Positions 1 through 17,188 of a DNA stretch of 28,876 nt are shown piece by piece. Position 1 is the stretch's first letter; each line of letters opens with the position of its first letter. The translations under genes and the position numbers were made by a program. Under the pieces are notes generated by a model that made no database searches, had not been told where the DNA came from, and saw only the letters and a list, made by a program, of their open reading frames with translations. This DNA is from a virus, in the IMG/VR virus record IMGVR_UViG_3300036715_002909, positions 1 to 28,876 of that record. One strand, written 5' to 3'.

Positions 1-45
1 CTTTGAAAGAAAAAGGCGCTATTTTATTGGTAGCAAAAGATTTGG

Positions 46-918
46 GTGGACTTGTGTGTAACGTTATGGGCTTTAACGCCGGAAGCCTGGAGACTTGTTG
101 CCAACGGGGAAATCCTCGATTTCTGGGCGGTTCTTGAAGTTTCCGATCCAGAGGAGAAGCCCGCTGGGCGTTGGAATCTATTGGTCTCGTGGCTTCAGAT
201 CTTGTCCGGCCTGGAGCTTGAGAAGCGCCACTTGCCGGCCCGCCTCCAGCAAATTTTCCTCAATGACAGTCTGCTGGTCAATCTGGATGCAGAAGATGTT
301 GAGGTCAATTTGCGAGGCGCATGGATGAGCTTTAACACTTTGCGCAACATTTTGAACGAAGCCGAAGTTCGACTCTCACTCGGTACCCTTGAACAGTTCA
401 TTGACCAGGAGCTACCTGCGGTCATCACCTGGATCGCTGCAACAGACCCCGGTCTTGATCGCAATCAGCAAAGGGCCGGTTGGAAGTTCTTGGCCAACAG
501 CGCTGTTGCGTGGGAGTCCGAAATAAGGGACCGCCCCGCTGCTGAGAAGCAAAGATGGCGCTGTGCGGTCAATTTTCTGCAGCGGGATGACTGGTGCATT
601 GACGGCATCACAAATGCATGGGAGTTGCACCGACTTTCATTGACACAACGGCATTGTGCCGATCGATTTCTGGAAGGCTGCTTAGCCGACCTTGAGCGAA
701 TCTTCACAATCAGTGATGCCAACGGCAAGAGACGGGCAACAGTTCGACTGAGTCGCCGCGGGTCGACATGGAGTGTTACTGACGTACGCGGTTTTGCAAA
801 CGCACCGGTTTCCGGTCAACTTCTCGATGTGAGTCAAAAATTGGCCGACTGCTACACCGAAGAATGGCAAGTTGAGAACAGTTCACTCTTGATAAGTTCA
901 ACCGGGAGCAAGGCATGA
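46..918 (+). CDS. Unknown protein, first gene of a three-gene nuclease/MBL operon
   Basis: This 290-residue protein is not one I recognise. It begins with GTG at 46, after an in-frame stop at 31-33; TTG at 52 is an alternative, and neither start has a convincing ribosome site. The N-terminal half is rich in Trp and Leu with acidic stretches, and looks alpha-helical. There is no signal peptide, membrane segment or recognisable catalytic motif. Its last codons overlap the next gene by an ATGA junction (915-918), so the two are almost certainly translated together. The base composition is visibly less G+C-rich than the phage genes beyond position 3186. Its partners, a putative nuclease and an RNase J-like protein, suggest a role in nucleic-acid processing or phage defence, but that is inferred from context alone. 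Confidence 0.75.
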   Translation: MDLCVTLWALTPEAWRLVANGEILDFWAVLEVSDPEEKPAGRWNLLVSWLQILSGLELEKRHLPARLQQIFLNDSLLVNLDAEDVEVNLRGAWMSFNTLRNILNEAEVRLSLGTLEQFIDQELPAVITWIAATDPGLDRNQQRAGWKFLANSAVAWESEIRDRPAAEKQRWRCAVNFLQRDDWCIDGITNAWELHRLSLTQRHCADRFLEGCLADLERIFTISDANGKRRATVRLSRRGSTWSVTDVRGFANAPVSGQLLDVSQKLADCYTEEWQVENSSLLISSTGSKA

Positions 919-1730
919 GTGATACCCCAACAGAAGTTCTTGAAGGCGTTGAGGCAGTCATCGACCATTATTTGCTTTCCGACGAAGACATGGCGCTCGG
1001 CTACAGGTACTTCCATAAGCGTACTTGCAATGCGCTCAGCAAGAATCCGCCGAAGGTATTTCACGGCTCAGCACTTGTTGCCGCCATCTACGAACGCATA
1101 GAGAGCAACTTGGCTAGCCGACCAAAGGAAAGTCGGGCACCGTCAGCACAAAACTGGCGCCTGCGTTTGACCGATGATCAAGAGTCGATTCTCCCGAATA
1201 TTCAAAATCGGAGCGCCGAGGTCAACCTTGAGAGGGCGATTGTCAAGAAATGGCCCCTCAATTGGACCTATCAGTTGCCAGTCGCGTCCGGACTTTTCGA
1301 TGGGCGTTCAGACAAACGCCGTGCAGTTGACTTGGTGTTTGACCATGGGGATCGTCACTATGATCTGGTCGAACTCAAGATCAAATCAGACACGCCCCTT
1401 TACGCAGCCATGGAAATACTTGGCTACGGACTGATTTACCTGGCATCCAGGCGCGACACCGCTAACAATCTTGGATATGAAAGTGTTGATTTGCCCATAT
1501 TAATAGCAAACAGGATTACCTTATGTGTACTGGCGCCCGAAATTTATTATCAGGACTACCCGGGCGGCCTCATTTGGTTGCAGGACGGAATCATGGACGG
1601 TTTGAAGCGATTTGAGGTGCTTGACTTGAGTATCGACTTCTGTTTTCAGAAATTCAGCGCCCAGTTTGGCAATGATCTTCCCATCAAATGTCTGCCTGAG
1701 ACACTGGTTCGTGAACCCGCGTGGCAATGA
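915..1730 (+). CDS. Putative PD-(D/E)XK-type nuclease
   Basis: The 271-residue protein has a pattern typical of the PD-(D/E)XK restriction-like nuclease fold in its middle. Glu106 lies in a helix (NLERAI), Asp139 in AVDLVF, and Glu153-x-Lys155 in LVELKI, followed by a helix containing YAAMEILGYG. In this superfamily these residues bind metal and cut DNA or RNA. The first 100 residues match nothing I know and may recognise a partner or substrate. The gene starts with ATG inside the stop of the upstream gene and itself ends in an ATGA overlap with the MBL gene at 1727. The fold call rests on motif spacing seen by eye. A non-catalytic member of the fold, or an unrelated protein with a chance D-ExK pattern, remains possible. 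Confidence 0.65.
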   Translation: MSDTPTEVLEGVEAVIDHYLLSDEDMALGYRYFHKRTCNALSKNPPKVFHGSALVAAIYERIESNLASRPKESRAPSAQNWRLRLTDDQESILPNIQNRSAEVNLERAIVKKWPLNWTYQLPVASGLFDGRSDKRRAVDLVFDHGDRHYDLVELKIKSDTPLYAAMEILGYGLIYLASRRDTANNLGYESVDLPILIANRITLCVLAPEIYYQDYPGGLIWLQDGIMDGLKRFEVLDLSIDFCFQKFSAQFGNDLPIKCLPETLVREPAWQ

Positions 1731-2956
1731 AATTCCGGATTCATCGGGGCGCCAAAGAGATCGGTGGCAACTGCATTGAGCTGAGTTGTGAAGGCAAGAT
1801 ACTGCTGCTCGATTTGGGGATGCCGTTGACCCTGGGCAACCCGGTGGACGTAGCACTGCCAGACATCGCCGGACTCGCTGACGGAAGGGATGAACATTTC
1901 CTGGGGGTTATCCTTTCACATCCGCACGCTGACCACTATGGGCTGCTGAGCATGGCAGCAAAGAGCACCCGCGTCTATTTGGGCCAGGACTCGCAGCGCC
2001 TATTGCGGGCTGCGCTGCCCTTCACCACCTTCGGGTTGGACTTCCCCAATGTTTCGACCTACCGGGATCGCGAAGCCTTCGAAGTCGGTCCATTTCGTGT
2101 CACACCATTTCTTGTTGATCATTCGGCCTTCGATGCTTACGCGCTGCTGATAGAGGCAGGGGGACGCCGGATCTTCTACACCGGCGACTTTCGCAGCCAT
2201 GGTCGCAAGCCAGGAAGCTTCAAACGATTGTTGGCAGAGCCTTCGATCAAAGGCGTCGATGTGATGTTGATGGAAGGCACGCATCTTGGGCGGAAAGGAC
2301 GGGCCGAGGCTCAGACGGAGGTTTCGCTGGAAGATGACATCGTACAGAGCATCTCCAATACCACAGGCCTGGTATTGGCCTGTTTTTCTGGCCAGAACAT
2401 TGACCGTGTCGTGACCTTCTGGAAGGCCGCCCGGCGTGCTGGACGAACCTTTGTAGCTGACGCGTATCTTGCGCACATCCTTCAATCATTGGACCGACCA
2501 ACGCTGCCACGGCCAACGGTGTTTCTGCCAAGGCGCATGAAGTCGAAGTTGCTTCGTGAAAGCAATACGTCTGTCGTCCTGCCGTTTCGCCGCCGGCGCA
2601 TCTATCCCGAGCAGATCGCCGACAAAGCCGGCAATCTGGTCATGATGTTCCGATCATCCATGATGGAGGAGTTCGAAAGTCTGGCGTGTCTCAAAGGCGG
2701 GAAGCTGATCTACTCACAATGGCCAGGGTATCTTGAGCGCGACCGGGTGAACCTCAGGGAGTGGTGCGCCCAACAGGAGCTGAGTTTTGAGATCCATCAC
2801 ACATCCGGGCATGCAGACGTCAAAACACTCGGCGAGCTAGCTGGGAGTGTTGCTGCCAAAAGGGTGATTCCAATTCACACGGACTCACCTGAACGAATGC
2901 GTGAACTGATTCCTAACGCCGCGCCAGTTCATGATGGTGAGTGGATCGTGGTTTAA
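1727..2956 (+). CDS. MBL-fold / beta-CASP metallohydrolase, RNase J-like
   Basis: This 409-residue protein has the full metallo-beta-lactamase signature. His65-x-His67-x-Asp69-His70 lies in LSHPHADHYG, His132 in VDHSAFDAYA and Asp153 in YTGDFRSHG. The C-terminal beta-CASP-type motifs follow, with His362 in SGHAD and His384 in IPIHTD. RNase J and CPSF-73-like nucleases have this layout and use two zinc ions to cut RNA or DNA. At 409 residues it is shorter than typical RNase J (about 550), lacking the C-terminal extension, so it is probably a specialised relative. ATG at 1727 is preferred over GTG at 1721 because it forms an ATGA overlap with the upstream stop. Its place as third gene behind a putative nuclease argues against a housekeeping role. 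Substrate unknown. Confidence 0.85.
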   Translation: MKFRIHRGAKEIGGNCIELSCEGKILLLDLGMPLTLGNPVDVALPDIAGLADGRDEHFLGVILSHPHADHYGLLSMAAKSTRVYLGQDSQRLLRAALPFTTFGLDFPNVSTYRDREAFEVGPFRVTPFLVDHSAFDAYALLIEAGGRRIFYTGDFRSHGRKPGSFKRLLAEPSIKGVDVMLMEGTHLGRKGRAEAQTEVSLEDDIVQSISNTTGLVLACFSGQNIDRVVTFWKAARRAGRTFVADAYLAHILQSLDRPTLPRPTVFLPRRMKSKLLRESNTSVVLPFRRRRIYPEQIADKAGNLVMMFRSSMMEEFESLACLKGGKLIYSQWPGYLERDRVNLREWCAQQELSFEIHHTSGHADVKTLGELAGSVAAKRVIPIHTDSPERMRELIPNAAPVHDGEWIVV

Positions 2957-3185
2957 GGTTGGTCGACTGAATTGTCATCCTGGTATTTCGACTAGATGGG
3001 TAAATGTCTGGCTGAGTAGCCGGGGAGCGGGCATGCACCAATACCCGCTTTCACTGCATCGCTGAGGTTGACGACGATGCGTTGACCCTTGCAGCGGTGC
3101 AGTGCCTGCGATGCCGCTGATTTCCTCCAAAACACGTTACGCGAAGTGCCCTTCGTTTCTAGCATGAGCAGCGTTTTCTACATGA
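2957..3185. other. Intergenic boundary between the MBL operon and the recombinase cassette
   Basis: About 230 bases with no convincing gene. A six-base-pair hairpin (AGCGGG at 3026-3031 with CCCGCT at 3044-3049) followed by TTTC could be a weak terminator for the upstream operon. Base composition shifts from moderate to high G+C across this gap. If the serine recombinase is the integrase of the element, an attachment site could lie here or left of the operon. No direct repeat that would prove it can be recognised inside the window. Confidence 0.4.
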
Positions 3186-3419
3186 ATGCCTGCCATGCAC
3201 AACGACGAACCCATCTCCTGCGCGAACGCCGACTGGCCGCGCCACCCCCACCAGGAAATCGCTGACCTGCTCGCCTTGGCGGTCCTGCGCCTGCGCGACA
3301 AGGACTCAGCGCCCTATCATTCGGCCACTTCGGACGAGAAAGACGCAGTTGGCCTTGGCTTTACTGCCAACCAGCGCGTGAATGCGAACCCCTATCAGAA
3401 AGAAGGAGTTCGCACATGA
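3186..3419 (+). CDS. Small protein of the DUF2924/serine-recombinase cassette
   Basis: A 77-residue protein with a helical middle (EIADLLALAVLRLR) and no catalytic motif I recognise. Its end overlaps the DUF2924 gene by ATGA at 3416-3419, which fixes it as the first member of the recombinase cassette. Small proteins of this kind often precede DUF2924-recombinase pairs in proteobacterial genomes, and their function is unknown. The start is uncertain: ATG at 3186 and ATG at 3195 are in frame and neither has a clear Shine-Dalgarno sequence. Confidence 0.65.
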   Translation: MPAMHNDEPISCANADWPRHPHQEIADLLALAVLRLRDKDSAPYHSATSDEKDAVGLGFTANQRVNANPYQKEGVRT

Positions 3420-3883
3420 AGACACACGCACCCCAGGTCGACGCCGCCAGCGTGGCGGCCCGCGTCGCCCAAATCCCCCACCTTCCCATGGACAGTCTCT
3501 GGGCGCTGTGGGATGAGCACTTCGACGAGCGCCCGAATCACCATCACCGGACCTGGCTCGAAACCCGTCTCGCGTACAAGATTCAGGAGCGCGCCTTCGG
3601 CGGCCTGAAGGGATCCGTGCGTCGCAAGCTGGAGGAGATCGGCGAGACCGGCATCCTGCCGCCCCGGCTGCGCCGAGAAGCCGATCGCCTGCTGCCCGGC
3701 ACGATCCTCACGCGCGTCTACGACGACGTCGAGCACCAGGTGCTGGTGCGCGGCATGCGCGACTTCGAATACCGTGGCCAGCGCTTCACGAGCCTCACGG
3801 CGGTGGCCAAGGTCATTACCGGGTGCCCGTGGTCCGGTCCTCTGTTCTTCGGCCTCAAGACCAAGAAGAAGGAGGAAGCATGA
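3416..3883 (+). CDS. DUF2924 family protein
   Basis: The 155-residue product has the hallmarks of DUF2924. A helical N-terminal half contains a LWALWDEHF-like segment and a RLAYKIQERAFGGL segment (about residues 52-65). A small beta-rich C-terminal half follows with PGTILTRVYDDVEHQVLV, YRGQRFTSLTAVAKVITG and the closing WSGPLFFGL. The family is almost always found directly upstream of a large serine recombinase and is thought to assist it, perhaps as a DNA-binding accessory factor, though no activity is established to my knowledge. A good ribosome site (AAGAAGGAG) precedes the ATG. The stop overlaps the recombinase start (ATGA, 3880-3883). Confidence 0.88.
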   Translation: MKTHAPQVDAASVAARVAQIPHLPMDSLWALWDEHFDERPNHHHRTWLETRLAYKIQERAFGGLKGSVRRKLEEIGETGILPPRLRREADRLLPGTILTRVYDDVEHQVLVRGMRDFEYRGQRFTSLTAVAKVITGCPWSGPLFFGLKTKKKEEA

Positions 3884-5292
3884 AATCCCATCGCAACACG
3901 CCGGCGCCACCGACGCTTGCGCCCAGGAAGCGCTGCGCGATCTACACCCGCAAGTCCACCGACGAGGGGCTGGACCAGGACTACAACAGCCTCGAAGCGC
4001 AGCGCGACGCCGGGTTGGCGTTCGTGTCGAGCCAGCGCCATGAAGGCTGGACCGCAGTGCAGGACGGCTACGACGATGGCGGCTACTCCGGCGGCAACCT
4101 GGATCGCCCCGCACTCAAGCGGCTGATGGCGGACATCGAGGACGGCCGCGTCGACATCGTGGTCGTCTACAAGATCGATCGCCTGACGCGCAGCCTGCCG
4201 GACTTCGCCAAGCTCGTAGATGTGTTCGACCGCAACGGGGTCAGCTTCGTGTCGGTCACGCAGCAGTTCAACACGACGACGTCGATGGGACGCCTGACCT
4301 TGAACATCCTGCTGTCCTTCGCGCAGTTCGAGCGCGAGGTCACGGGCGAGCGCATCCGCGACAAGATCGCGGCCAGCAAGGCCAAAGGCATGTGGATGGG
4401 CGGCATGCCACCTCTCGGGTACGACGTCGTCGAGCGCAAGCTGGTGATCAACACACCGGAGGCAGACCTGGTGCGGGATATCTTCCGTCGCTACGCCGAG
4501 CATGGGTCGGCGGCAGAGATCGTGCGCGAGTTGGCGATCGAGGGACGCACCACCAAGGCATGGGAGACACAGGGCGGTCTGTTCCGGGAGGGTCGGCCGA
4601 TCGACCAGCAGTACCTTTTCAAGATGCTGCGCAACCGGATCTACCTGGGCGAGATCCAGCACAAGGGCACCAGCTACCCGGGGCAGCACGACGCGATCAT
4701 TGACCAGAAACTCTGGGACGCGGCCCACGCTTTTGTCGAGCGTCGCAAGCACGGTCCGCGCGAAGGCATCACCCAGCATCCCGCGCTGTTGGCCGGCCTG
4801 CTTCACGCGCCCGACGGTCAACTGATGATCCACAGCTACACGCGCAAGAAGAACGGGCGCCTGTACCGCTACTACGTTCCGTACCTGCACAAGCGGCGCA
4901 GCGCCGGGGCGACCCTTGCGCCCGGTTCCGTCGACATCGGGTCGCTGCCTGCCGCCGAGATCGAAACGGCGGTCCTGGAGCAGATTCACAAAGCGCTGCG
5001 GGCGCCGGAGTTGATGGTCGCCACTTGGCGGTCATGCCAAAAGCACCCCAAGGGCGCCAACCTCGAAGAAGCTCAGGTGGTCGTCGCCATGCAGCGCATT
5101 GGTGCAGTGTGGGACCAGCTGTTTCCGAAGGAGCAGCAGCGGATCACGCGCTTGATGATCGAGCGCGTCCAATTGCATGAGCGCGGCTTGGACATCCTCT
5201 GGCGTGAAGACGGGTGGATTGGCCTCGGGGCCGACATCGCCAGCCACCCGCTGGTCGAGGAGTCCGCGTCGACTGAAGGAGCCTACGCATGA
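3880..5292 (+). CDS. Large serine recombinase (site-specific integrase)
   Basis: The 470-residue protein begins with a resolvase/invertase catalytic domain. The nucleophile is probably Ser26 in YTRKST, with the supporting arginines in KIDRLTRS and in the FAQFEREVTGERIRDK helix. A recombinase domain follows (about 165-290, from PPLGYDV to the LRNRIYLGEI region), then a region aligned with the zinc-ribbon domain and a helical tail. The zinc-ribbon cysteines are missing: the expected CxxCG position reads HAPDG, as in a proteobacterial subgroup of these enzymes. ATG at 3880 is preferred over an upstream in-frame ATG at 3823, because it follows GGAGGAAGC and overlaps the DUF2924 stop. It most likely integrates and excises the prophage. 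Alternatively the four-gene cassette may be a mobile unit of its own. Confidence 0.93.
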   Translation: MKSHRNTPAPPTLAPRKRCAIYTRKSTDEGLDQDYNSLEAQRDAGLAFVSSQRHEGWTAVQDGYDDGGYSGGNLDRPALKRLMADIEDGRVDIVVVYKIDRLTRSLPDFAKLVDVFDRNGVSFVSVTQQFNTTTSMGRLTLNILLSFAQFEREVTGERIRDKIAASKAKGMWMGGMPPLGYDVVERKLVINTPEADLVRDIFRRYAEHGSAAEIVRELAIEGRTTKAWETQGGLFREGRPIDQQYLFKMLRNRIYLGEIQHKGTSYPGQHDAIIDQKLWDAAHAFVERRKHGPREGITQHPALLAGLLHAPDGQLMIHSYTRKKNGRLYRYYVPYLHKRRSAGATLAPGSVDIGSLPAAEIETAVLEQIHKALRAPELMVATWRSCQKHPKGANLEEAQVVVAMQRIGAVWDQLFPKEQQRITRLMIERVQLHERGLDILWREDGWIGLGADIASHPLVEESASTEGAYA

Positions 5293-6218: not shown

Positions 6219-6230
6219 TTGGAGAAGGCG

Positions 6231-6710
6231 ATGAACGAAATCACCATCTTCCCCGAGCAGTTGTCCGCGATGTCGGATGCCCAGTTGGCCTCGCTGCCGC
6301 CGGCACAGCTCTGCGAGGTCCATCACAACCTTGCGCAGCTGGTCGACTGGGTCAAGAAGGCGCAGGCCAAGGTCCACGGCGCCATGCAGCGCCGCTACGC
6401 CGAGCAAGAGCGCGCCGCTCGTGCCGAGGCCGGTAAGGACTTCGGCACCGTGCGCTTCAACGACGGACTGGTCCGTATCGCCGTCGACACACCGAAACGC
6501 GTGAGCTGGGACCAGAAGCAGCTCGCGGCCATCGCCCAGCGCATCGCTGATTCCGGCGACCGGGTCGAGGACTACCTGGACATCGAGTTCAGCGTCCCTG
6601 AGTCCCGCTTCACCAACTGGCCGACCTCGCTGCGCGAGCAGTTCGAGCCTGCCCGTACCGTCAAACCCGGCAAGGCGTCCTACGACCTGGCCATCGATTC
6701 CGAGGACTGA
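6231..6710 (+). CDS. Phage early protein of unknown function
   Basis: A 159-residue protein starting at ATG 6231 after GGAGAAGG. An in-frame TTG at 6219 has no ribosome site of its own. Residues 30-75 are strongly helical and charged (LAQLVDWVKKAQAKVHGAMQRR, then YAEQERAARAEAG), probably a coiled coil. The second half is mixed, with a KRVSWDQKQLAAIAQRI helix. I recognise it only as the type of protein found in early regions of related proteobacterial prophages. It sits in a tight run of early genes leading to the recombination module. No enzyme motif is visible. Confidence 0.75.
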   Translation: MNEITIFPEQLSAMSDAQLASLPPAQLCEVHHNLAQLVDWVKKAQAKVHGAMQRRYAEQERAARAEAGKDFGTVRFNDGLVRIAVDTPKRVSWDQKQLAAIAQRIADSGDRVEDYLDIEFSVPESRFTNWPTSLREQFEPARTVKPGKASYDLAIDSED

Positions 6711-6713
6711 TCC

Positions 6714-6998
6714 ATGAATACCAACAACACCTCTGCACTGCGCAAGCACATCACGTCGTTCTACGCCGACCACCTGCCGGAGCAGATCCGCTACCGGGAC
6801 CGCGCCGGCCGGGAAGTGGTGATCGTGCCGACGCACACGGCCACGCTCGACGAACTGGCATTCGCCATTCAGATGGCATCCGAGGAGCAGTCCATCGCCA
6901 GCCGCCGCCGCTGCGCACTGGACGAGCTCTACATCAACGCCCGCAAGGCCGGCGCCCTCGGGGCCGATCGCCTCTCCGACATCGCCTGGAAGGAGTAA
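6714..6998 (+). CDS. Phage early protein of unknown function
   Basis: A 94-residue protein starting three bases after the previous stop, so it is part of the same transcript. It has a predicted helix around residues 44-72 (LDELAFAIQMASEEQS followed by SRRRCALDELYINARKAG) and no recognisable motif. The next gene begins two bases after its stop, and that gene's ribosome site, AAGGAG, lies within its final codons. Confidence 0.72.
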   Translation: MNTNNTSALRKHITSFYADHLPEQIRYRDRAGREVVIVPTHTATLDELAFAIQMASEEQSIASRRRCALDELYINARKAGALGADRLSDIAWKE

Positions 6999-7000
6999 CC

Positions 7001-7759
7001 ATGAACACGCTCATCCCCTTTCAGTTCGCGACGCATGCCCTGCGCGTGCAGGTCGACGACGCCGGCCAGCCCTGGTTCAACGCCAATGACGTCTGCGCAG
7101 CCCTGGAACTGGCGAATCCGCGCGATGCGCTCGCCAAGCACGTCGATGCGGATGACGTCGCAAAACGCGACATCATCGACAGCCTGGGCCGGGTCCAACT
7201 GGCGAGCTTCGTCAACGAGTCGGGCCTGTACGCGCTGATCCTCGGCAGCACGAAGGATGCCGCGAAGCGGTTCAAGCGCTGGGTCACCAGCGAGGTCCTG
7301 CCCTCGATCCGCAAGACCGGCGCCTACTCCGGCACCCCGGTCGCCGCCTTGCCGGCACCGACCCAGGACCGCGTGTCCTCCCTGCTACTGATCGGTGACG
7401 CCGTGGCCAAGGTGCCGGGCGTGAAGGCCGGCATCGCCATGGCGGCCACGCTCACCTGCATCCAGGAGAACACCGGGCTGGTGATCGAGACGCTGCGCCG
7501 TGCGCTGCCGGCCGCCAACGAGCCAACCTGCTCGCACAACGCGACGCAGCTGGGCAAGTTGGCCGGGTCCTCGGCCAAGGCCACCAACCAGCGCCTCGCG
7601 CTTCTGGGCTTCCAGTTCCGCAACGAGCGCGACGAGTGGGAACTCACCGACGCCGGCAAGGCGTGGGCCGAGGCCATGCCGTTCTCGCGCAGCGGCCACA
7701 GCGGCTACCAGATCCTCTGGAATCCGGCGGTCGTTGAACAGCTGAAGGAGGTGGCGTGA
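7001..7759 (+). CDS. Bro-N domain protein, antirepressor-like
   Basis: The first 110 residues of this 252-residue protein match the Bro-N fold. Its WFNANDVCAALEL helix region, the VDADDV stretch and the closing FKRWVTSEVLPSIRKTGAYS are diagnostic of phage antirepressor and BRO proteins, which bind DNA. The C-terminal 140 residues are a different helical region with TNQRLALLGFQFRNERDEWE, a winged-helix-like pattern seen at the end of many phage antirepressors. It may relieve repression during induction or regulate early genes. AAGGAG precedes ATG by six bases. No CI-type repressor that it might counter is visible in this window. Confidence 0.85.
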   Translation: MNTLIPFQFATHALRVQVDDAGQPWFNANDVCAALELANPRDALAKHVDADDVAKRDIIDSLGRVQLASFVNESGLYALILGSTKDAAKRFKRWVTSEVLPSIRKTGAYSGTPVAALPAPTQDRVSSLLLIGDAVAKVPGVKAGIAMAATLTCIQENTGLVIETLRRALPAANEPTCSHNATQLGKLAGSSAKATNQRLALLGFQFRNERDEWELTDAGKAWAEAMPFSRSGHSGYQILWNPAVVEQLKEVA

Positions 7760-8577
7760 TGACACTTCCGATCATTACCGCTGACCAGCGCCTGCGCGAG
7801 AAGAAGGGCGTGAAGCTGGTGCTGCTCGGCAAGAGCGGCATCGGCAAGACCACGCAACTCAAGACGCTGCCGGAGGCATCGACGCTGTTCGTGGATCTCG
7901 AAGCCGGCGACCTCGCGGTCAGGGACTGGCGTGGCGACTGTGTGCGCCCGAGCACCTGGCCTGAGTTCCGTGACCTCGTGGTCTTTCTGGCTGGCCCCAA
8001 TCCAGCGCTGCCGCCGGAAGCGCCGTATTCCGAAGCGCACTACCAGCACGTCTGCGAGCGCTACGGAGATCCGGCGCAGCTGGCCAAGTACGACTGCTAT
8101 TTCGTCGACAGCATCACCGTGCTGGCGCGCCTGGCGCTGATCTGGTCCAAGGCCCAGCCGCAGGCCATGTCCGAGCGCACCGGCAAGCCTGACACCCGCG
8201 GCTCCTACGGCCTGCTTGGCACCGAGATGCTGGGCTCCCTGATGCATTTGCAGCACGCCCGGGGCAAGCACGTCGTGTTCGTCTCGATCCTCGACGAGCG
8301 CATGGACGACTTCAACAGGAAGGTGTTCGTGCCGCAGATCGAAGGCGCCAAGACCTCGGCCGAGCTGCCCGGCATCGTCGACGAGGTCGTGACGCTCGCT
8401 GAGATCAAGGCCGAGGACGGCTCGTCGTACCGCGCTTTCATCACCCAGACCATGAATCCCTATGGCTACCCGGCCAAGGACCGCTCCGGCCAGCTCGACC
8501 TGCTGGAGCCCCCCAATCTGCGCGCACTCATCGAGAAGTGCGCTGCCGCCACCCAACCCAAAAACAGCAAGGAGTAA
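7759..8577 (+). CDS. Sak4-like AAA-family ATPase (phage recombination)
   Basis: A 272-residue P-loop protein with Walker A GKSGIGKT at residues 24-31 and a Walker B-like strand ending in Asp117 (YDCYFVDS). It resembles the AAA_24/Sak4 group, RecA-like single-domain ATPases that phages pair with a single-strand-binding protein for strand annealing or exchange. The next gene looks like that partner, and a Cas4-like nuclease follows two genes on. ATG at 7759 lies eight bases after AAGGAGG and is preferred over GTG at 7756; both overlap the preceding stop. The P-loop is certain, and the Sak4 assignment depends on neighbours and overall shape. Confidence 0.82.
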   Translation: MTLPIITADQRLREKKGVKLVLLGKSGIGKTTQLKTLPEASTLFVDLEAGDLAVRDWRGDCVRPSTWPEFRDLVVFLAGPNPALPPEAPYSEAHYQHVCERYGDPAQLAKYDCYFVDSITVLARLALIWSKAQPQAMSERTGKPDTRGSYGLLGTEMLGSLMHLQHARGKHVVFVSILDERMDDFNRKVFVPQIEGAKTSAELPGIVDEVVTLAEIKAEDGSSYRAFITQTMNPYGYPAKDRSGQLDLLEPPNLRALIEKCAAATQPKNSKE

Positions 8578-14350: not shown

Positions 14351-14385
14351 TGCAAACCCAGGTTTGCACCGGTTTGCAGTTTGCA
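14351..14385. promoter_or_regulatory. GTTTGCA repeat cluster (operator-like)
   Basis: TGCAAACC (14351-14358) is the complement of GGTTTGCA, which appears at 14361-14368 and 14371-14378, with a fourth GTTTGCA at 14379-14385. The first two form an inverted pair and the later ones are direct repeats about 8 to 10 bases apart. This suits cooperative binding by a regulator of the downstream genes. Which protein binds is unknown. Confidence 0.45.
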
Positions 14386-14401
14386 CCCCGATCCGATCAC
14401 C

Positions 14402-14442
14402 GAGCCCGCCCACGGCAAACCCGTCGGCGGGCTCTTTCATTT
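14402..14442 (+). terminator. Intrinsic terminator-like hairpin
   Basis: GAGCCCGCC (14402-14410) pairs with GGCGGGCTC (14426-14434). Beyond a C-C mismatch, ACGG pairs with CCGT inside. The stem is followed by TTTCATTT. This probably ends the early transcript arriving from the DUF6362-like gene. Confidence 0.6.
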
Positions 14443-14460
14443 CACGCTGCAGTGCCCCTG

Positions 14461-14506
14461 GCGGCCCGGGTGGGTTCACTCCTTTCCCGCTCGGGCCGCA
14501 TTTTTT
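14461..14506 (+). terminator. Intrinsic terminator-like hairpin with T6 tail
   Basis: GCGGCCCG (14461-14468) pairs with CGGGCCGC (14492-14499) across a 23-base loop, followed by A and six T residues. It ends only about 14 bases before the likely methyltransferase start. Transcripts of that gene must therefore either start between the two or read through. This suggests antitermination or attenuation. Confidence 0.6.
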
Positions 14507-14519
14507 CGAGGACCACATC

Positions 14520-15923
14520 CTGAACACACTCAACGTCGCCTACCGCAAGGTCGAGACGCTGATCCCTTACGCCAAGAACCCGAGGACCCACACCGATGCC
14601 CAGATCGCCAAGATCGCGGCCAGCATCGTGGAGTACGGGTGGACCAACCCGGTGCTGGTGGACGGCGCCAATGGCGTCATCGCAGGACACGGACGTCTTG
14701 CCGCCGCGCACAAGCTGGGTCTCGCCGAGGTCCCGGTCATCGAACTGGCGCACCTTACGCCGGCACAGAAGCGGGCCTACGTGATCTCCGACAACCGCCT
14801 GGCGCTCGATGCCGGATGGGACGAGGAACTGCTGGCGCTGGAACTGGCGGAACTCTCTGAGGCTGGCTACGACCTGGCCTTGACCGGCTTCGACGATGGC
14901 GAGATCGAGTCCTTCCTGGCCCGTGCCACCGAAGAGGACGATGCTCAATCCGGTGAGTCCGACGAGGACGCTGCGGACGACGTGCCTGAACCGCCCCAGG
15001 TTCCGGTGAGTCAAGTCGGTGACGTGTGGGCGATCGGACGGCATCGCTTGATCTGCGGCGACTCGACCGATGCGTCGGTGGTCGCCACGTTGATGGGAGG
15101 CGATCGCGCCCGGCTGTGCTTCACCTCACCACCCTATGGCAACCAGCGGGACTACACCAGTGGCGGCATCGCCGACTGGGACGCGCTCATGCGCGGCGTC
15201 TTTGCCAACATGCCGACGACTGCCGACGCACAGGTGCTGGTCAACCTCGGCCTGATCCATCGGGACAACGAGTTCATCCCGTACTGGAATGCCTGGGTCG
15301 ATTGGATGCGCACGGCCGGTTGGCGACGCTTCGCTTGGTACGTCTGGGACCAGGGGCCGGGCATGCCCGGTGACTGGTCGGGACGCTTCGCGCCGAGCTT
15401 CGAGTTCGTGTTCCATTTCAACCGCGAGAGCCGCAAGCCGAACAAGATCGTCCCCTGCAAGTTCGCTGGCCAGGAGACGCACCTGCGTGCCGACGGATCC
15501 TCGACGGCGATGCGTGGCAAGGACGGCGAGGTCGGCGGCTGGACGGCCGCTGGCCAGCCGACGCAGGACTTCCGCATCCCCGATTCAGTGATCCGCGTCA
15601 TGCGGCACAAGGGGAAGATCGGGCAGGACATCGATCACCCGGCCGTGTTCCCGGTGGCACTGCCTGAGTTCGTGATCGAAGCCTTCACAGATCAGGCCGA
15701 CATCGTGTTCGAGCCGTTCGGCGGCAGTGGCAGCACCATGCTGGCAGCCGAGCGCACGGGGCGCACCTGCCGCGCCATCGAGATTGCGCCGGAGTACGTC
15801 GACGTGGCGATCCGGCGGTTCCTGCAGAACCACCCGCTGGTGCAGATCACGCTCGTGGCCACCGGCCAGACCTTTGCGGAGGTGACCAAGCAGCGACTGT
15901 TCGTCGGGGAGACGCGGCAATGA
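14520..15923 (+). CDS. ParB-domain DNA methyltransferase with TSPPY motif
   Basis: Counting from a CTG at 14520 the protein has 467 residues. The first 110 form a ParB/sulfiredoxin-like domain (LIPYAKNPRTH, IAGHGRLAAAHKLG). After an acidic linker, a beta-class methyltransferase domain follows, with motif IV TSPPY at 202-206 and motif I FEPFGGSGST at 397-406. TSPPY is usual in N4-cytosine enzymes, although some N6-adenine enzymes share it. The substrate is DNA with S-adenosylmethionine. The frame is open back to a TTG at 14364, but that stretch runs through both terminator hairpins and is low in coding character. GAGGA lies just upstream of the CTG, and homologous proteins usually begin at this point. 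The non-standard start is inferred. Confidence 0.85.
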   Translation: MNTLNVAYRKVETLIPYAKNPRTHTDAQIAKIAASIVEYGWTNPVLVDGANGVIAGHGRLAAAHKLGLAEVPVIELAHLTPAQKRAYVISDNRLALDAGWDEELLALELAELSEAGYDLALTGFDDGEIESFLARATEEDDAQSGESDEDAADDVPEPPQVPVSQVGDVWAIGRHRLICGDSTDASVVATLMGGDRARLCFTSPPYGNQRDYTSGGIADWDALMRGVFANMPTTADAQVLVNLGLIHRDNEFIPYWNAWVDWMRTAGWRRFAWYVWDQGPGMPGDWSGRFAPSFEFVFHFNRESRKPNKIVPCKFAGQETHLRADGSSTAMRGKDGEVGGWTAAGQPTQDFRIPDSVIRVMRHKGKIGQDIDHPAVFPVALPEFVIEAFTDQADIVFEPFGGSGSTMLAAERTGRTCRAIEIAPEYVDVAIRRFLQNHPLVQITLVATGQTFAEVTKQRLFVGETRQ

Positions 15924-17188
15924 CTTCCTGGCTCGCCGACAAGATCGAGCCGTGGCCAACGACTCGGCTCATCCCGTATGCACGCAACGCCCGGACCCAC
16001 TCGCCGGAGCAAGTGGCACAGATCGCTGCGTCGATCGTCGAGTTCGGGTTCACCAACCCGATCCTGGCCGGCAGCGACGGTGTCATCGTTGCCGGTCACG
16101 GTCGGCTGGCTGCCGCCCAGAAACTGGGCTTGGCGACCGTGCCGGTGGTGGTCCTCGATCACCTGACGCCCACGCAGCGCCGGGCGCTGATCATCGCGGA
16201 CAACCGGATCGCCGAAAACGCCGGCTGGGACGAGGCGCTGCTGCGCATCGAAATGGCTGACCTGCAGGACGCCGACTTCGATCTGTCGCTCACGGGCTTC
16301 GATGCCGACGCGCTGGCCGAACTGATGGCGGGCGATGAGCCGCAGGGCGAGGGGCAGACCGACGACGACGCAGTCCCGGACGTGGCGGAGACGCCGGTGT
16401 CACGGCCCGGCGATGTCTGGTTGCTGGGTGGCCACCGGCTGCTGTGCGGCGACTCCACCGTGGCTGAGAGCTACGACAGGGTGCTCGACGGCGAGCCAGT
16501 GGACATGGTCTTCACCGACCCGCCCTACAACGTGAACTATGCCAACAGCGCCAAGGACAAGATGCGCGGCAAGGTTCGCGCGATCCTGAACGACAACCTC
16601 GGTGACGGCTTCTACGACTTCCTGCTGGCGGCGCTGACGCCGACCATCGGGAACTGCCGGGGCGGCATCTACGTGGCGATGTCGTCCAGCGAGCTGGATG
16701 TGCTGCAGGCAGCGTTCCGTGCCGCCGGTGGCAAGTGGTCGACGTTCATCATCTGGGCCAAGAACACATTCACGCTGGGCCGCGCCGACTACCAGCGCCA
16801 GTACGAGCCGATCCTGTATGGATGGCCTGAGGGGGCGCAGCGCCACTGGTGTGGCGACCGCGACCAAGGCGACGTCTGGAACATCAAGAAGCCGCAGAAG
16901 AACGATCTGCACCCGACGATGAAGCCGGTGGAGTTGGTCGAACGCGCGATCCGCAATTCAAGTCGCCCTGGAAACGTGGTGCTTGACCCGTTCGGTGGCT
17001 CCGGCACGACGCTGATCGCCGCCGAAAAGTCAGGGCGGCTGGCACGGCTGATCGAGCTCGACCCGAAGTACGCGGACGTGATCGTGCGCCGCTGGCAGGA
17101 ATGGACTGGCAAGCAAGCCACCCGCGATTCGGATGGCGCGCTGTTCGATGATCAGGCGGCGAGCGACTCCTCGGCGATCTCGCAGTGA
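15920..17188 (+). CDS. ParB-domain DNA methyltransferase with DPPY motif
   Basis: A 422-residue paralogue of the preceding enzyme, joined to it by an ATGA overlap. It has the same N-terminal ParB-like domain (LIPYARNARTHSPEQ, VAGHGRLAAAQKLG) and an acidic linker. The catalytic domain has motif IV DPPY at 200-203 and motif I LDPFGGSGTT at about 355-364. The order DPPY before FGGSG is that of beta-class enzymes; DPPY points to N6-adenine methylation. The pair may modify phage DNA at two bases or sites and so protect it from restriction. Its last 37 bases overlap the end of a minus-strand gene. Confidence 0.9.
   Translation: MTSWLADKIEPWPTTRLIPYARNARTHSPEQVAQIAASIVEFGFTNPILAGSDGVIVAGHGRLAAAQKLGLATVPVVVLDHLTPTQRRALIIADNRIAENAGWDEALLRIEMADLQDADFDLSLTGFDADALAELMAGDEPQGEGQTDDDAVPDVAETPVSRPGDVWLLGGHRLLCGDSTVAESYDRVLDGEPVDMVFTDPPYNVNYANSAKDKMRGKVRAILNDNLGDGFYDFLLAALTPTIGNCRGGIYVAMSSSELDVLQAAFRAAGGKWSTFIIWAKNTFTLGRADYQRQYEPILYGWPEGAQRHWCGDRDQGDVWNIKKPQKNDLHPTMKPVELVERAIRNSSRPGNVVLDPFGGSGTTLIAAEKSGRLARLIELDPKYADVIVRRWQEWTGKQATRDSDGALFDDQAASDSSAISQ

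Follow-up and report, generated by a model that had tools for sequence, protein, structure and literature searches.

A candidate modular defence operon in a prophage cargo slot pairs an RNase J-like MBL/beta-CASP protein with an exchangeable PD-(D/E)XK-type nuclease

The window analysed here (the whole 28,876-bp stretch of IMG/VR virus record IMGVR_UViG_3300036715_002909) carries at its left end three genes, g1, g2 and g3, forming an operon. This operon is probably the prophage-carried version of a modular system of defence type (anti-phage or anti-MGE) that has no name yet; the core of the system would consist of g3 and an adjacent PD-(D/E)XK nuclease. We infer the defence function from the recurrent pairing of the two genes, the intact catalytic motifs in both, their mobile and defence-rich genomic contexts, and the replacement of the partner beside a nearly unchanged MBL gene. 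The operon and the adjoining prophage sequence are arranged as follows (window coordinates):

46 to 918, plus strand: g1, a truncated PcfJ-like accessory protein, with a helical N-terminal part and a C-terminal domain (about residues 183-286)
915 to 1730, plus strand: g2, a putative PD-(D/E)XK-type nuclease of class A, with predicted catalytic residues E102, D139, E153 and K155
1727 to 2956, plus strand: g3, coding for a 409-aa RNase J-like MBL/beta-CASP protein that forms the system's conserved core
3113 to 3148, plus strand: cargo/backbone edge, where variable cargo meets the conserved prophage backbone, with the core AAAACACGTTACGCGAAGTG at 3129-3148
3195 to 5289, plus strand: prophage backbone beside the cargo, comprising a small conserved ORF, a DUF2924 protein and a large serine recombinase

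Both ATGA overlaps described in a sequence-only reading of this DNA (g1/g2 at 915-918 and g2/g3 at 1727-1730) are present. The same reading credited g3 with complete MBL and beta-CASP motifs, and this holds: all ligands (D29, H65-x-H67-x-D69-H70, H132, D154, E183, H358/H362 and H384) are present and remain invariant in 15 homologues, down to 27% identity. They account for MBL motifs 1-4 (D, HxHxDH, H, D) and for beta-CASP motifs A (D/E), B (H) and C (H), at E183, H358/H362 and H384, with motifs named and defined as in PMC3095777. Pfam Lactamase_B_2 matches g3 (2.9e-15), and the nearest solved relatives in a profile search are EF2904 (PDB 2az4; 4e-37) and RNase J (about 1e-30), with CPSF73 and Cas14 also matched. 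The likeness to the RNase J/beta-CASP family, including EF2904, thus extends over the MBL fold and both sets of motifs. Unlike RNase J, however, g3 lacks the C-terminal RNase J domain (409 aa, as against about 550 aa for the full-length enzyme with that domain), reaches only 69.6 bits against the cut-off of 400 for the RNase J equivalog TIGR00649, and, in contrast to the RNase J controls, shares its operon with a PD-(D/E)XK gene. A plain RNase J identity or host housekeeping role was rejected in view of the short length of g3, the patchy distribution of its family and the partner linkage. Cas14 and Apyc1-like identities were also rejected on scores or partners (the NCBIfam Cas14 model gives 28.1 bits against a cut-off of 800).

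For g2, the proposed D139...E153-x-K155 nuclease pattern is borne out by distant homologues: E102, D139, E153 and K155, which together match the E...D...ExK catalytic set of the PD-(D/E)XK superfamily, are invariant across nine sequences, most of them just 12-21% identical to g2. At such low identity, this invariance argues that the pattern is not due to chance. An AlphaFold2 model of low confidence (pLDDT 45) has the order helix-strand-strand-strand-helix-strand expected of the superfamily core, with D139 opening one strand and E153/K155 closing the next, likewise where such residues should lie. Foldseek returned no significant match for this model, and restriction-type folds (EcoO109I, N.BspD6I, EndoMS, FokI and HamA) recur in the list. 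Searches of g2 against Pfam, PADLOC, NCBIfam and PDB sequences gave no match, which does not exclude it from a superfamily as divergent as PD-(D/E)XK. Scans of plasmids with g2, and of viral contigs with g2, g1 and relatives of both, yielded nothing useful. The assignment of g2 as a predicted PD-(D/E)XK nuclease is based on its conserved motifs and modelled strand order.

We assembled g3-family loci from genomes, plasmids, viral contigs and phylum samples (Pseudomonadota, Bacteroidota and Bacillota included), and here the two core genes travel together: profile models for four partner classes place a PD-(D/E)XK-type gene no more than 3 kb away, with an overlap in most cases, in 36 of 45 loci, compared with none of the 12 control loci (RNase J or distant MBL). 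The partner models were trained on 27 of the 45 loci. Among the 18 untrained loci, nine gave a model match, three lie at contig ends (L005, L152 and L154), two have partners recognised by eye (L163, and L022, where E replaces K), and four have no recognisable PD-(D/E)XK partner (L003, L013, L020 and L167). An overlap of exactly 4 nt is seen in about a dozen pairs, in both gene orders. A search for the L002 pair in E. coli genomes yielded nothing useful.

Partners fall into class A (the window, L001, L002, L021, L025 and L026), class B (L014-L019 and L023), class C (L004, L029 and L131) and class E (L024, L027, L032, L033 and L128), and D and ExK are invariant in all class alignments. By hhalign, classes B and E are homologous (5e-13), classes A and C are probably so, judging by an alignment over the motif (3e-5), and the match between A and B is weak (0.005). 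Because A and B are not clearly homologous, the term "partner" may lump independent nucleases. L134/L161 looks like a decaying copy: stop codons interrupt its MBL gene, whose neighbours are a class C partner and a WG-repeat-like gene.

The idea of a shared three-gene system survives only in part, in that PD-(D/E)XK-type and MBL genes recur in unrelated genomes, often beside defence genes, but the trio is not fixed: it is complete only in L001 (76% identity to the window in g3, 55% in g2 and 45% in g1), and outside these two copies g1 is replaced or absent. Further system genes to the left of the window, which had been suggested, are not required, because the L001 operon consists of exactly g1-g2-g3 and stands alone between unrelated housekeeping genes, which we take to be a decarboxylase gene and folA. 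What the left side of the window does lack is the 5' end of g1 itself. The gene probably does not truly begin at position 46: relative to L001 g1 (346 aa), its N-terminus is short by about 82 residues, and homology begins at nt 70, indicating that g1 was truncated by the contig edge or rearranged close to it. Window positions 1-69 are AT-rich and without homology to the L001 g1 N-terminus, representing either a contig-end artefact or a real junction.

The sequence-only reading left g1 unrecognised. No Pfam, PADLOC or NCBIfam model matches it, but its C-terminal part can now be likened to PcfJ: hhalign aligns g1 with the Pfam-positive PcfJ gene of L025 (probability 79%, E 1.6e-5), L001 g1 scores 11.9 bits against Pfam PcfJ (cut-off 25), and plasmid matches of g1 carry PcfJ annotation. 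The PcfJ gene of L025, an independent viral locus, lies two genes upstream of g3. This locus (L025:4072-8057) is a compact viral operon of a PcfJ-like gene, a gene reading like agmatine deiminase, the MBL gene and the PD-(D/E)XK gene. The C-terminal part of g1 was modelled at a pLDDT of about 80, and almost all of the 50 best Foldseek matches to this model are GNAT/FemX-like (probability up to 1.0, E 1e-2 or worse); we take the predicted GNAT-like fold as a lead only. We class g1 as an accessory gene outside the g2+g3 core, and g3 is the conserved core of a two-gene unit.

The site beside the integration module had been called typical for defence cargo, and comparison with related phages agrees. 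In more than 10 relatives (integrases 68-98% identical), similarity to the window sets in at about 3113-3127 and extends rightwards only, and the upstream DNA differs. To the left of this edge, relatives carry ImmR and ImmA, followed by no cargo or by one to a few variable genes, which defines a slot between ImmA and the DUF2924 gene/large serine recombinase (seen with L045, L047, L057, L072 and L076). Cargo in these relatives includes DzbA of Dazbog (2e-51), a HEC-05/GmrSD-type gene (2e-39), a trypsin-like PDC-S45 gene (3e-15) and a WYL regulator. The backbone genes of the window match DUF2924 (2.7e-41), Resolvase (6.4e-39) and Recombinase (2.1e-13) in Pfam, and the small backbone ORF is also kept in L045/L057. 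Elsewhere in the window, two overlapping phage genes at 14364-17188 read as a ParB-like protein and a DNA methyltransferase (SPPY/DPPY motifs), and parts of 6227-8000, under antirepressor and hypothetical-protein genes, are ~78% identical to Acidithiobacillus phage AcaML1 DNA.

The sharp edge at 3113-3127 also raised the suspicion that the trio is chromosomal flank from a badly trimmed prophage, a host gene cluster possibly engaged in ordinary RNA or DNA metabolism. Such an origin would fit a contig that is cut inside g1 and shows no ImmA gene, as well as the L001 trio, which sits among housekeeping genes. We nevertheless judge it unlikely: the phage family continues to the left of the boundary, with ImmR-ImmA and cargo beyond the edge and ImmA found there in 24 relatives, and the gene is invisible in the window because the contig ends inside g1. 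Base composition is foreign in both copies of the trio (window and L001), and the low GC3 of the window trio (0.56-0.63, versus 0.85 for the backbone) marks it as acquired. The g3 family is, moreover, rare and patchy, being present in 9/299, 3/296, 8/299 and 2/74 genomes of four phylum samples. Overall, we consider it likely that the trio is prophage cargo and not host flank.

Several other members of the family lie in defence-rich or mobile surroundings. The L002 pair neighbours a type I methyltransferase, PDC-S11 and a Wadjet operon; L015 is accompanied by an Eco57I-type RM system and a mobF relaxase; two GmrSD-like genes adjoin L020; McrC and WYL genes occur at L021; and the MBL locus of L023 directly follows a large serine recombinase. 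Additional gene families were seen next to the MBL gene: a metallophosphoesterase gene overlaps its 3' end at L018:8209-8853 and L020:8455-9024 (L020 being without a detected PD-(D/E)XK partner), an unnamed family of small proteins (about 125-150 aa) with a GIFW motif adjoins it in alphaproteobacterial plasmids (L013, L014, L015 and L019), and AAA ATPase genes lie upstream of it at L003 and L034/L150, the L034 one matching IetA (7e-37).

Overlapping two-gene operons on plasmids, in prophages and in transposon-rich regions are also what a toxin-antitoxin or addiction module would look like, in which one nuclease is toxic and restrained by the other gene product or an accessory protein, so that the cell retains the element. 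However, neither of the two is a small antitoxin, both look catalytic, and the gene order varies; we regard such a module as improbable. Even less probable, in our estimation, is a counter-defence role in which the MBL protein degrades a host signal (e.g., a cyclic nucleotide, like Apyc1) and so protects the phage. Prophage carriage and a weak match of g3 to the cyclic-nucleotide phosphodiesterase model NF041851 (17.8 bits, cut-off 400) point this way, and phages reportedly deploy MBL-fold nucleases against CBASS and Pycsar; but beta-CASP motifs A-C indicate nucleic-acid cleavage, many members are chromosomal or plasmid-borne, several are neighbours of defence genes, and a PD-(D/E)XK partner accompanies the majority.

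Within the family, the PD-(D/E)XK partner is drawn from at least four subfamilies and has been exchanged repeatedly. On a 43-row g3 tree, the partner label (five states: the four classes and "none detected") changes 21 times, and since shuffled labels average 24 changes, it is hardly clustered. By well-supported branches of this tree, class B alone requires at least seven changes. Among same-class pairs of loci, g3 is more conserved than the partner in 159 of 181 (mean 39% versus 31%, the pairs not being independent of one another). The clearest case is that of L150 and L151, whose g3 proteins are 97.9% identical. At the DNA level the two loci share a 2346-bp stretch (98.2% identity) that breaks off precisely with the g3 stop codon, and similarity resumes, at 94% identity, directly past the partner gene. 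The partner genes in between have no DNA similarity and 26% amino acid identity, and both carry D-ExK. A third locus, L148, has the same flanking genes and a class E partner. L150 and L151 sit on short contigs (7.5 and 8.8 kb) on which misassembly is possible, though it would need to respect both gene borders. A search within the family of L150 for further alleles of this locus returned only already known loci.

How the two proteins divide the work can be proposed only conditionally. The g2 and g3 proteins would form a complex in which the variable PD-(D/E)XK protein recognises and cuts invader nucleic acid, or is triggered by it, and the conserved MBL protein, acting as beta-CASP enzymes do, would either process the exposed ends of RNA or DNA or break down transcripts; PcfJ-like, WYL, metallophosphoesterase and other genes would be optional sensors, regulators or accessories. 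In restriction systems, type I hsdS is an exchangeable specificity gene beside a conserved core, and the present system works alike in that one gene is swapped beside a conserved core gene, although the g2+g3 unit is without a methyltransferase and the swapped gene itself bears nuclease motifs. The roles might also be reversed, with the MBL protein as a constant sensor, regulator or gated enzyme and the PD-(D/E)XK protein as an exchangeable effector, in the way that CBASS keeps a constant core and changes its effectors. The partner could indeed be the effector and not the recogniser: the swapped gene is a nuclease whose D-ExK stays intact while the remainder changes, the L150/L151 swap fits either role, and MBL nucleases act as gated effectors in other systems (PMC12799240). 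We nonetheless consider the reversed assignment unlikely. The MBL protein is not merely a sensor, because all catalytic residues are kept in the 15 aligned members; and because the L150 and L151 partners are of the same class and similar length with the motif intact, their swap resembles a change of specificity more than one of effector type.

Comparison with described systems leaves the pair without a name, in line with the earlier failure to match it to a known defence system. PADLOC 2.0 has no model matching g1-g3 or the g3 homologues scanned (the L023 partner weakly matches HEC-02B, 5e-4), no Pfam, PADLOC or NCBIfam model names the g2+g3 pair, and searches of the open-access literature in PubMed Central turned up no description of it (most subscription journals and bioRxiv lie outside these searches); the DefensePredictor main text mentions neither MBL nor RNase J. 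Cas14 of type VII CRISPR is a beta-CASP effector nuclease recruited into immunity (PMC10910872); g3 is also a beta-CASP protein, but its operon contains no Cas5/Cas7. MBL nuclease-trypsin pairs, which occur in AVAST, Hachiman, Lamassu and DRT, likewise combine an MBL nuclease with a second enzyme in defence loci, but there the MBL protein is likened to DNA-uptake nucleases and the partner is a protease (PMC12799240), whereas here an RNase J-like protein accompanies a PD-(D/E)XK protein; identity with that system was rejected on scores or partners. Prophage-encoded defence hotspots, with variable cargo at a fixed site in temperate phages, are a known concept (PMC8791490), and the present case differs in its slot, between ImmA and DUF2924/serine recombinase, and in a cargo type unnamed in PADLOC.

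In a more far-reaching form, to which we give somewhat less than even weight, the locus would represent an undescribed, phylum-spanning immune system in which an RNase J-like beta-CASP nuclease is stably paired with a cassette-replaced PD-(D/E)XK nuclease, so that recognition changes and the processing enzyme is kept, with the prophage copy adding a PcfJ-like third protein, predicted to be GNAT-like, as a further layer. Its building blocks appear to be known nuclease folds, and the chance that the system is categorically new is the smaller one. If the defence reading is correct, enzymes of RNase J type, familiar chiefly from housekeeping RNA decay, would have been recruited into widespread modular defence, and natural cassette swaps would provide ready-made pairs for testing which subunit sets the target. 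Carried by a prophage, such a system would shield the lysogen from competing elements, and the locus also points to a site for defence cargo within a family of prophages.
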